A stretch of DNA of 41,745 nt from a virus. Each line of letters starts with the position of its first letter. Within the stretch, counting starts at the first letter, position 1. This document shows positions 3,950 through 41,745 of this stretch, piece after piece. Under the pieces are notes generated by a model that saw only the letters and a program-made list of their open reading frames with translations, did not search any database and had not been told where the DNA came from. Position numbers and translations under genes: made by a program. The stretch lies in the IMG/VR virus record IMGVR_UViG_3300034167_000100, positions 1-41,745 of that record. One strand, given 5' to 3'.

Positions 3950-4070
3950 CGGTACGGCTAGTGTACGTACAGAACACGCTAACGCTCTAGCCCTGGATGG
4001 TGGAGATAAGTCTGTCGTTACTGGAGCTAAGCTGATCGCCTCTATCGACGCTGCCTGTAAAGGGTATTGA
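3867..4070 (+). CDS. Rz1-like outer-membrane spanin lipoprotein
   Basis: This 67-aa frame starts inside the i-spanin gene in a shifted frame and runs past its end. Residues 1-16 form a lipoprotein signal peptide with a hydrophobic core (TILVMILLF), and the lipobox V-S-G-C places the lipidated cysteine at residue 17. The mature part is about 50 aa and contains two further cysteines. It is the o-spanin partner. The last codons overlap the -35 box of the next promoter. Confidence 0.82.
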   Translation: MRQTILVMILLFSVSGCANVVNQQAVCDGTASVRTEHANALALDGGDKSVVTGAKLIASIDAACKGY

Positions 4071-4095
4071 CAACTTAAAAGATGTGTTGTATAAT
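4067..4095 (+). promoter_or_regulatory. Consensus sigma70 promoter before the large terminase
   Basis: TTGACA at 4067-4072 and TATAAT at 4090-4095, both perfect, are separated by 17 bases. Transcription should start near 4102, some 27 bases before the terminase ATG. The match shows that host sigma70 RNA polymerase is used for the head genes. Confidence 0.88.
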
Positions 4096-38659: not shown

Positions 38660-39109
38660 TTTGTTTTCCCCTTGGTTGCTTGCTTTCGATGTATTCAACT
38701 TAGGACAAGGTTTTGAGGATGTAAACAACTATTTTCACAAAACCAGGATAAATCGTATAAGTGATTGAAAGCATTAGAAAAGAAAAGTGTAGGGGAAAGG
38801 ATAACGACAGATGTTGCTGATTCGTTATATGTTCTACGGGTATGGGTAAAGGATACACGCGCGCGTAGGATACTACGGGTTCAGCGACACAGGAAAGGAA
38901 CCTTGTAAACTTGTAACGACAAAGAGAGGGGGAAAGTGTAATGTTGTAATAATTGCATACACATAGGGATGTGTGAATATGAGTGGAACGAATTTGACCT
39001 GCAATGCAGAATATAGGTAAGCATACCTGACCTATTATACTGTGACATTAATACCACAAGGTGTTACATCCAGGCCACAGTGATATAAATGCAACAGGTG
39101 TGTGCTTTC

Positions 39110-39148
39110 GGGGACACACGTTCGAGGGGCAGAGCAGGGGGTTGGGGG
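39110..39148 (+). other. G-rich run, potential quadruplex
   Basis: Four G-runs of at least four bases lie on the + strand at 39110-39113, 39126-39129, 39137-39141 and 39144-39148, with loops of 12, 7 and 2 bases. No coding frame requires them. A four-layer quadruplex is possible in single-stranded DNA or in rightward RNA. Confidence 0.45.
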
Positions 39149-39224
39149 TGGCCCTATACATGTACAAGACGTGAAGAAATTTTCTCATAGAAATTCCTGA
39201 CATCACAAGAATCTGTAGCGTCTA

Positions 39225-39251: not shown

Positions 39252-39303
39252 TCGAGGAGTAGTTAGCCCTACCAGTAACCACCTCTAGGAGCTTACGACA
39301 AAG

Positions 39304-39334
39304 AAAAACCCTCCCAAGTGTTACCTTGGAAGGG
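39304..39334 (-). terminator. Strong leftward terminator in the leader
   Basis: On the - strand, CCCTTCCAAG (39334-39325) and CTTGGGAGGG (39318-39309) form a 10-bp stem with one mismatch and a 6-base loop, followed directly by TTTTT (39308-39304). It lies about 200 bases downstream of the leftward consensus promoter and 640 bases before the first leftward gene, so it would end the transcript early unless overridden. Confidence 0.8.
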
Positions 39335-39484
39335 TGTATGTGTACAAGAATGACTTTGAAGTAGAACTTTGAGGTAATTCCTTTAAGGAATAGACCACTC
39401 CTTCTAGTATGATACTAAGAAGTAGTTGTGTACCTTGGAAGGTAGTACTTTAAAGTACTTACTTAAAGGATAGACAACTCCTTT
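39323..39484 (-). ncRNA. Structured leader / possible small RNA between leftward promoter and terminator
   Basis: Transcription from the leftward promoter (start near 39524) to the terminator gives an RNA of about 220 nt without a gene. It contains two copies of a repeat: ACCTTGGAAGG at 39323-39333 and again near 39432, each followed by a TTAAGGAATAGAC-type element and CTCCTT (39382-39404 and 39461-39484). AAGGA and TCCTT within each copy can form a hairpin. The first ACCTTGGAAGG is one arm of the terminator, so the second copy could compete for pairing. Coordinates cover the repeats only. Confidence 0.45.
39444..39459. repeat. Perfect 16-bp palindrome
   Basis: AGTACTTTAAAGTACT is exactly self-complementary. 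It lies within the leftward leader, some 70 bases downstream of the promoter -10 box. It could be a dimeric protein site, or a stem in one half of the tandem repeats. The other repeat half contains the similar ATTCCTTTAAGGAAT. Confidence 0.6.
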
Positions 39485-39530
39485 TCGTAGTTACTTATAG
39501 TAATAGATATACCCCGGAGGCAACAAAGAA

Positions 39531-39559
39531 ATTATACACACATTTTCTACATCTGTCAA
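39531..39559 (-). promoter_or_regulatory. Leftward consensus sigma70 promoter (early block)
   Basis: On the - strand, TTGACA at 39559-39554 and TATAAT at 39536-39531 are both perfect, with 17 bases between. It faces the replication block and is divergent to the promoter at 39595. A DnaA-box-like TTATACACA (39532-39540, + strand) overlaps the -10 box. Confidence 0.88.
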
Positions 39560-39594: not shown

Positions 39595-39623
39595 TTGACA
39601 AGGTATCTGAGCCATGCTATACT
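39595..39623 (+). promoter_or_regulatory. Rightward sigma70 promoter (small terminase, tail fibre)
   Basis: TTGACA at 39595-39600 and TATACT at 39618-39623 are 17 bases apart. The expected start near 39630 gives a leader of about 38 bases before the ATG at 39668. The two -35 boxes of the divergent pair are only 35 bases apart, so binding at one may influence the other. Confidence 0.82.
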
Positions 39624-39667: not shown

Positions 39668-40195
39668 ATGATGTTCTCCCCAAGCCAGCTTAAAGGTGAC
39701 AACAACAAGACCTTCACTAAGTCTCTCTTCTTCGAACTCTGTTACATGGACCCTTCACGGGCCTTGTTCACGTTGAAGGAGCAGGACATTGAAGTAAGGG
39801 GTCAGACATTCTTGTCGTTACAGAAACTATACATCAGCCTGGTCCCTAACGATCCTACTGAGTATGAGTTTGCTATGACCATCTTCGGGTCGTGGGATGT
39901 ATGGCAGGATCTGAACAAGTCACCTCTCCTTAAGCCTTCCATTGCTAGGTGGCGTAAGGAAGCTGAGGTCAAGGTTAAGTCTGAGGCTATCAAGGCTATT
40001 GCGGAAGAGATGAGAAGTGGTGGTCGTTCCTCCTTCGGGGCAGCTAAGCTTCTCCTTGAACGTGGATGGTTGGACAAGGAAGCTGCCTCTCAAGCTAAGC
40101 GTAAGCTTATTGAGAAGGAAGAGGAGGAGATGGACAAGCAAGCCCTCTCCATGCTCAATGAAGATGCTCAGCGTCTAGGGATCAAGGTAAACTAA
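39668..40195 (+). CDS. Putative terminase small subunit
   Basis: The 175-aa protein is helical and charged. Residues 85-150 contain LLKPSIARWRKEAEVKVKSE, IAEEMRSGGRSSFGAAKLLL and a long basic/acidic helix (KRKLIEKEEEEMDKQAL), a composition like DNA-binding, ring-forming small terminases. A large terminase is present but no other small subunit candidate is seen. It is the first gene after the rightward promoter. A second ATG follows the first directly. Identification by size, position and character is moderate. Confidence 0.6.
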   Translation: MMFSPSQLKGDNNKTFTKSLFFELCYMDPSRALFTLKEQDIEVRGQTFLSLQKLYISLVPNDPTEYEFAMTIFGSWDVWQDLNKSPLLKPSIARWRKEAEVKVKSEAIKAIAEEMRSGGRSSFGAAKLLLERGWLDKEAASQAKRKLIEKEEEEMDKQALSMLNEDAQRLGIKVN

Positions 40196-40229: not shown

Positions 40230-41745
40230 ATGCCTAACATCAATGACACATATGCCAGTGTACTAGCTGCTTACAGCGGCAGTGTGAATGATAAGCGTAG
40301 TGCCCGTCTCACTGAGTACTTGGGTTACGCTAAGCCTTTGTCGTTGAATGATATGGAGAAGGCTGCTCTAGCTGCTCTTGGTCACAGTGGTTCCCTTAAT
40401 GATGCTTGGGACTCCTACCTTAGATCACTAGGTGGTTCAGGGTTTACAGCTAAGGCTGATCTTTTGTCGTCTACCTTCTACGGTAACCCAGTTCCTGGTC
40501 TATTTACAGCATCTGAACCCGGCACTTGGTACGATCCGTCATCTGTCGCTAACCTAGATTGGCGCAGGAATTTGCTGACGTTTACTGAGCAGTTTGATAA
40601 TGCGGGTTGGATTAAGGGAAACTTCACTGGAACCGTTTCTGCCAATACATCCGATACAACTGACCCGCTTGGCACGAATACAGCCGACAAGTTAGATGCA
40701 ACAGCAGCTAACTCGTTCATCGTTCAAGAGATTTCCACTATTGCAACAGGATACACTTACTCGTTCTATGCTAAGGCAGGAACAGCGTCTTCGGTGCGCG
40801 TCAATGTCTTCGACACATCAGATCATCGGGCGATATTTAGCCTAACTGATGGATCAGTATCGGCAGTTGTCGGTGTGACCAATACCAATGCGATAAGTCT
40901 TGGCAATGGCTGGTGGCGTCTATCTATAAGCTACACTGGTGCGGTAGCTACTAGCAGCGCCCGTGTGCTTTGTCCAAACACTGGTTCAATTTACATCTGG
41001 GGCGCACAGCTCGAACTAGGCTCCACCGCCACAGCCTACCAGCGCATCACTGATGTGAACACTGAAGTAGCTGAGCGTTTCCCAAACAACACACTGTTCC
41101 AAGACAGCGCAGGGACCACGCCTGTAACTGGCCCCAACCAGACTGTCGGCTTGATGCTGGATAAGTCTCAGGGGCTGGTGCTGGGATCGGAGTTGGTTGC
41201 GAATGGTGACTTCTCTGGCGGTTCAACAGGCTGGAGTGTCCCCGCAGGATGGTTAATTACTGGGGGGGCAGCAGTCGCCGCAGCAACTAATGCTAGCCTT
41301 CTTGGCGGGGGCTTAACACCTGTATCAGGCCGCACCTATCTCGTAAGTTTTGATGTCGTCAGCTACACATCAGGAACTTTATACGTCACTGTCGGTGGCA
41401 ATTTCTCTGGAAACCCTGCCCTAACTGGCGCTGCAATGGCTGTTGGGCGGAAGTCTGTTTATGTTACCTCTGGGTCTAGTCCGTCTAGAGGTGTAGAATT
41501 TTACGGTGGGACTATTGCAGCCACTATCGACAACATCTCCGTCAAGGAACTCGCTGGCAACCACGCCACACAAGCCACACTTGGTCAGCGTCCTACCTAC
41601 GGGGTCAACCCCATCACTGGGACGCGCAATCTGCTGACCTATACGGAGCAGTTTGATAATGCAATTTGGACGAAAAGTATTGCCACAATAACCGCCAACA
41701 CTGAAGTTGCCCCAGATGGCACTATGACAGCGGATCGTTTTGTTT
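40230..41745 (+). CDS. Tail fibre / receptor-binding protein, N-terminal part (continues at window start)
   Basis: The frame opens at ATG 40230, 7 bases after AAGGGAG, and stays open to the window end, continuing in frame at base 207 after the overlap (about 800 aa in total). Residues 1-110 are helical and use the codons common in this phage; they probably attach to the tail. Residues 113-271 are a carbohydrate-binding-like module (TEQFDNA at the start, GAQLELGSTATAYQ at the end). Residues about 320-441 are another CBM4/9-like module (VANGDFSGGSTGW ... IDNISVKEL). A further module and a lectin-like domain follow in the part at the window start. Codon use changes to GC-richer after about 40555. 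Confidence 0.82.
   Translation, partial: MPNINDTYASVLAAYSGSVNDKRSARLTEYLGYAKPLSLNDMEKAALAALGHSGSLNDAWDSYLRSLGGSGFTAKADLLSSTFYGNPVPGLFTASEPGTWYDPSSVANLDWRRNLLTFTEQFDNAGWIKGNFTGTVSANTSDTTDPLGTNTADKLDATAANSFIVQEISTIATGYTYSFYAKAGTASSVRVNVFDTSDHRAIFSLTDGSVSAVVGVTNTNAISLGNGWWRLSISYTGAVATSSARVLCPNTGSIYIWGAQLELGSTATAYQRITDVNTEVAERFPNNTLFQDSAGTTPVTGPNQTVGLMLDKSQGLVLGSELVANGDFSGGSTGWSVPAGWLITGGAAVAAATNASLLGGGLTPVSGRTYLVSFDVVSYTSGTLYVTVGGNFSGNPALTGAAMAVGRKSVYVTSGSSPSRGVEFYGGTIAATIDNISVKELAGNHATQATLGQRPTYGVNPITGTRNLLTYTEQFDNAIWTKSIATITANTEVAPDGTMTADRFV
40567..41042 (+). repeat. Carbohydrate-binding-like module, first copy in the tail fibre
   Basis: This segment pairs with bases 89-517. Both edges are conserved at DNA level (the last 48 bases match at 44 positions), whereas the centre differs in sequence and length. 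It encodes residues 113-271 of the fibre. Confidence 0.7.
41540..41745. repeat. Terminal overlap, right copy (same as 1-206)
   Basis: This is the right-hand copy of the 206-base redundancy that closes the sequence into a circle. It differs from the left copy only at 41618 (T against G at 79); both variants leave the fibre reading frame open. Confidence 0.93.

Follow-up and report, generated by a model that had tools for sequence, protein, structure and literature searches.

The region at positions 39300 to 39559 of the window (the whole 41,745-nucleotide stretch of viral DNA analyzed here, IMG/VR record IMGVR_UViG_3300034167_000100) is best read as a small-RNA gene of the Veravirus-type cobaviruses, located between a putative small-terminase gene and the predicted packaging cut. 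The window comes from a podophage that belongs to the cobaviruses (Zobellviridae, Cobavirinae), marine phages with a global distribution (PMC6775973); at the DNA level, the annotated phages nearest to it are ICBM2 and CRP-5 (both Veravirus). We give about an even chance to the view that this stand-alone gene at the right (packaging) end yields a stable, structured non-coding RNA, made by the host polymerase, that acts as a molecule. The host sigma70 RNA polymerase would start at about 39524, head toward the genome end, and be released at the terminator near 39300, without reaching the cut site (about 39168) or the terminal repeat. With a hairpin at its 5' end and the terminator hairpin at its 3' end, the RNA should be stable, and because its promoter has the consensus sequence it should be abundant. 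The terminator would set the 3' end of the RNA and also prevent a strong transcript from running into the cut site and repeat. The RNA is probably the functional product, and its most likely mode of action during infection is in trans, as a structured RNA that regulates or binds protein; its transcription, abundance and trans action are predictions from the sequence.

In the window, the sigma70 promoter TTGACA-N17-TATAAT (39531–39559, minus strand) that would drive the small RNA matches the consensus at 12 of 12 positions, and the RNA start is placed near 39524 from the sequence. Only one more exact TTGACA-17-TATAAT exists in the window, at 4067–4095 on the plus strand, just 5' of the large terminase gene (4129). 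The predicted non-coding RNA of about 220 nt (39300–39524, minus strand) was recognized by its fold, the absence of a conserved ORF, and the conservation of its 5' end and terminator. It carries a 5'-terminal hairpin, UGCCUCCGGGGUA (39510–39522, minus strand), that is weak in the window and stronger in many relatives, and ends at an intrinsic terminator (39300–39335, minus strand) composed of an 11-bp stem (39335–39308; stem dG -18.7), a 6-nt loop and the T-rich tail TTTTCTTTGT. From the RNA end to the first leftward ATG (38660) there are about 640 bases. The original prediction of a leftward sigma70 promoter, with a strong terminator about 200 bases on and 640 bases short of the first leftward gene, was thus borne out. 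The RNA from 39524 to 39300 (225 nt) folds at -60.9 kcal/mol with a z-score of -3.58, and none of 200 shuffled sequences folded as well; the z-score drops to -1.72 once the 3' 42 nt are removed, and the excess is largely that of the terminator. When this region alone was scanned with consensus patterns, the number of sites was not above that in shuffled sequences, so that the proof against chance lies in the conservation among relatives.

Inside the RNA, the two-copy repeat and the 16-bp palindrome described earlier were both recovered. The first copy of the repeat (family D1) forms the AAGGAGTTGTCTATCCTT hairpin (39463–39489, minus strand), and the second (39383–39409, minus strand; 27 nt) is 81% identical to it; the palindrome, AGTACTTTAAAGTACT, was read from the sequence at 39444–39459. 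The hairpin AAGGAGTTGTCTA at 39463–39489 is found as its reverse complement, TAGACAACTCCTT, in the RNAs of related lineages (L011, L012, L014 and L043), as if it had been inverted. An upstream copy of the 5' arm of the terminator, claimed near 39432, also exists (39431–39447, minus strand; family D4, 88%). Its supposed role as the switch of a conditional terminator, pairing in place of the downstream arm, did not hold, and by energy the copy makes no working anti-terminator. Pairing probabilities are 0.84–1.0 for the terminator and about 1e-6 for the alternative, and when the alternative was forced the fold reached -51.7 instead of -60.9 kcal/mol, a cost of 9.2 kcal/mol. In foldings of the growing transcript, the terminator was preferred already at 215 nt, with its 3' arm still incomplete. 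Of the relatives, only L003 and L005, the closest ones, showed the arm copy. A conditional terminator was rejected on the energies, on this non-conservation and on the position at the genome end.

Relatives were collected in two IMG/VR scans with the neighboring protein, which gave 43 loci and then the best 80 of 297, with partial overlap; many of these loci are metagenomic fragments. Counting isolates, there were 82 distinct upstream regions with a length of 400 nt or more, and promoter and terminator occur together in 73 of them, by simple search criteria under which some of the apparent absences may be misses, e.g. L129, where the promoter is present and the terminator hairpin is seemingly enlarged by an insertion. 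This presence in close relatives favors a real feature. The unit is absent from, among others, SIO1, ICBM1 and ICBM3 (Siovirus), MEP401 and L130. The CRP-4-like lineage (CRP-4 and L131–L133) has TTGACA-17-TACCCT in place of the usual promoter, and L134, in which the same sequence accompanies a terminator, is included in the 73. RNA length among the relatives ranges from 103 to 254 nt. For ICBM2, which infects Lentibacter SH36, an RNA of about 260 nt is predicted, with its end about 100 bp short of the terminal repeat. Terminator arms were compared directly, the MAFFT hairpin alignment being too gapped for pair counts. For 28 distinct 6-bp stems, an arm forms 6.0 of 6 pairs with its own partner (by construction, as the stems were selected as paired) and 3.6 with the arms of other loci; to judge from these sequences, the stems change in a compensatory way. 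Of the covariation that was to be looked for in this region, compensatory change was seen in the terminator stems; the arm copy of the alternative pairing was seen in the closest relatives only. Many of the relatives' terminator hairpins (e.g. L066, L076, L047 and L084) have in common an apical CCUUGG-N6-CCUUGG and a tandem U-U internal loop; CCTTGG recurs also in the terminal-repeat regions of several lineages.

Identity within lineages was compared in seven lineages, six of which gave data. Nucleotides 1–30 of the RNA are 90–100% identical and the terminator stem 92–100%, against 69–93% for the 17-nt promoter spacer and 65–89% for the spacer to the next gene. Because conservation is usually higher at the start of the RNA and in the terminator stem than in the promoter spacer, the RNA itself is probably the product, and selection would seem to act on the RNA and not on the act of transcription alone. 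In lineages A, B, E and G, the interior of the RNA is more conserved than either spacer. It is not so in D and H, and this, together with the strong variation in interior and length, speaks against the small-RNA reading, as does the absence of the unit from the sister genus Siovirus. The 5' hairpin was recognized in 29 of 31 representative RNAs, with stem sequences that differ by lineage (these were not counted statistically). We could not find a conserved reading frame in the RNAs of relatives, a shared seed or target among the lineage RNAs, or a common core fold across them. A coding leader was rejected: the sole ORF of at least 12 aa in the window RNA (25 aa, GTG start) is present in L003 and stopped early in L005, and the ORFs of the other RNAs differ. 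The motif CAGATTCT was likewise rejected as an RNA seed; it lies within the RNA in many lineages, but 3' of the terminator in the window and L003.

On the other side of the promoter, a divergent promoter (TTGACA-N17-TATACT, 39595–39623, plus strand; 11 of 12 positions) points toward a gene at 39668–40195 (plus strand) that encodes a phrog_8035 protein (unknown function); a divergent promoter with at most two mismatches is found in 35 of 81 distinct regions. Homologues of phrog_8035 in other Zobellviridae, namely CW02, CVT22, VR7901 (KpnP_VR7901), GX1 and GP100, are encoded directly 5' of the large terminase gene, touching or overlapping it, and in the cobaviruses tail genes lie between the two. 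On this synteny the protein is probably the small terminase. The assignment rests on gene order because a fold search with its AlphaFold model (mean pLDDT 72) gave no PDB match with E < 1. The large terminase of these phages is of the T7 type. In L095–L097, the promoter is separated from the small-terminase-like gene by another gene, and the promoter-RNA-terminator unit is still retained.

The gap between the terminator and the early genes contains, by homology, the packaging junction, that is, the cut site and the terminal repeat. PacBio reads had revealed direct terminal repeats at both ends of ICBM1–3 (PMC6775973). The repeat of ICBM1 is 172 bp, and that of ICBM2 (159 bp) is annotated at 40749–40907 of its record and starts inside a block, TTAGAAAATCTTTAGTCGC|ATTGTACATACAGCAGGCTACCCCC, that the window carries too. 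From the homologous sequences at the mapped ICBM2 end and in VpV262 and RIO-1, a terminase cut-site box, AGGAATTTCTATGAGAAAATTTCTTCACGTC, was placed at 39169–39198 (minus strand), with the cut at about 39168/39169, and a direct terminal repeat is predicted at 39000–39168 (minus strand), where it is present in a single copy in the assembly and its inner end is approximate. A cut-site-like box stands directly 5' of the annotated repeat in VpV262 (no mismatches to the box pattern) and RIO-1 (two mismatches), and related sequences exist also in CW02 and CVT22. In ICP2 and GP100, sequences resembling the cut motif were rejected, being without the C-rich flank present at mapped cut sites. In the predicted terminal repeat there are iteron-like repeats, TTGCATTTATATCACTG, GGCCTGGATGTAACACC and TGGTATTAATGTCACAG (39000–39100, minus strand), which are possible candidate binding sites for a phage protein, and relatives carry a palindrome, GTTATAnTATAAC, in that region. 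In virion DNA, the promoter would therefore lie near the right end and be aimed at that end, and the replication genes would occupy the opposite end, beyond the second copy of the repeat. In VpV262, a Vibrio phage of another genus (L145, 2047–2242), a sigma70 promoter matching 11 of 12 positions is followed by about 150 nt, a terminator and then the right terminal repeat; the same order in this phage suggests that the location matters. The unit was not seen in RIO-1, CW02 and CVT22.

The original prediction had left a choice between a small RNA and an early leader set by antitermination. The conserved promoter, 5' end and terminator support the former, and the genome end and the folding energies are against the latter. 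Because the terminator is separated from the early genes by the cut site and terminal repeat, the promoter is unlinked to these genes on infecting linear DNA. An attenuated leader with read-through into the replication genes would have to work at least on concatemeric or circular replicating DNA; on concatemers, no other gene separates the promoter from the early genes that it then faces, so that read-through may occur there, and the window showed no strong early promoter. The negligible and non-conserved alternative pairing argues against such a leader, and so does the existence of TTGACA promoters right 5' of the early genes in several relatives. A universal separate early promoter could not be upheld, however, as TTGACA-type sites occur in only 12 of 49 regions and in none in the window, and therefore the case against the leader rests mainly on the genome end. 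We consider the leader improbable. To a similar degree improbable is the idea that the region is an insulator only, in which the divergent promoter region gives rise to the promoter as a by-product, the terminator shields the genome end and the RNA is functionless: the terminator does stand just 5' of the cut box in most relatives, but a by-product would not be expected to keep a near-perfect promoter in 73 of 82 regions or a 5' end better conserved than the adjoining spacers.

The main rival to the small-RNA reading is a role in cis at the junction, where transcription toward the concatemer junction and the polymerase stop would help the terminase find or mature the end, or open the DNA for end-proximal replication. 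Such an element would work like the right-end promoter and concatemer-junction pause of T7, here with the host polymerase and an intrinsic terminator. This role would explain the placement of the unit between the probable small-terminase gene and the cut, the same order in VpV262, and the distance from the terminator end to the cut-site block, which is 43–49 bp in 37 of the 62 loci that were measured, not all of them distinct; conversely, a purely trans role for the small RNA leaves its constant location beside the cut site unexplained. However, the spacing is 141 bp in the window and more than 700 bp in L029 and L025, two lineages that retain the unit despite an inserted gene, the unit is missing in Siovirus, CW02 and CVT22 with the same type of cut box, and the conserved 5' end of the RNA is not expected from an element acting in cis. 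On balance the cis role seems possible, though rather unlikely. The genes inserted between terminator and cut box (L029, 2915–3574; L025, 3082–3780) are endonuclease-like (phrog_3322, endonuclease VII / HNH-like), possibly homing into the packaging junction. That the RNA is a dedicated component of end maturation or packaging in a T7-like phage that uses the host polymerase only, as an RNA cofactor of the terminase or through a programmed polymerase stop by which the end is passed on to the terminase, would be unlikely. Least credible is a structural part in the packaging motor by analogy to phi29: the similar size, the end-proximal position and the adjoining terminase-associated gene fit, whereas a T7-type large terminase and a probable small terminase are present in these phages, the sister genus has no need of the RNA for packaging, and the RNA varies more than twofold in length and has no common core fold.

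The small-RNA gene was compared with known systems. At the gathering score, an Rfam search of the window and nine loci, with the pRNA model included, gave no hit other than a tRNA in VpV262, and relaxed-threshold matches to PyrR, ncr1575, MIR1027 and ctRNA_p42d were far below the cut-offs. The intergenic sRNAs of lytic phages, a general class (review, PMC12197685), likewise have their own promoter, a structured RNA, an intrinsic terminator and no ORF; here, an own promoter, an intrinsic terminator with compensatory stems and no conserved ORF were found. The present unit differs from this class in its fixed place between a terminase-associated gene and the cut, the absence of an Rfam match, and conservation at the genus level. 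T7 resembles the unit in its way of working, with a right-end promoter aimed at the terminal repeat and a polymerase stop near the junction by the terminase genes (PMC3276506 and general knowledge), but here the polymerase is the host sigma70 enzyme instead of the phage's, an intrinsic terminator lies 5' of the cut, the RNA is conserved and the spacing is not the same in all loci. According to one review, packaging RNAs are so far unique to phi29-like phages (PMC11476376). The pRNA of phi29 (174 nt, genome positions 147–320) is also a short RNA with a host-type promoter near a genome end. This situation is different from that of the cobaviruses, in which the terminase is of the T7 type and the RNA is variable in length, shares no fold, matches nothing in Rfam and is dispensable in the sister genus. 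Attenuators and leader antitermination have in common with the assembled contig a promoter, a structured RNA, a terminator and genes in the same direction; here, however, a genome end intervenes and there is no competitive anti-terminator and no conserved leader peptide or riboswitch. The main text of the cobavirus genome paper describes predicted terminators, chiefly a bidirectional one between the arms, and does not mention promoters, small RNAs or intergenic elements, though its supplements may list the terminator of this RNA (PMC6775973). In a text search we found no literature on a cobavirus sRNA or transcriptome.

In short, the unit looks like a previously undescribed phage small-RNA gene in an unusual, packaging-linked location. 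The map is corrected in that the 640-base gap 5' of the replication genes is predicted to contain the packaging junction and not to be a leader. Conserved and apparently abundant, the RNA gene next to the cut site offers a definite target for RNA-seq and knockouts. Either it would represent a new phage regulatory or decoy RNA, or it would demonstrate a coupling of host transcription to packaging in phages that have no polymerase of their own.
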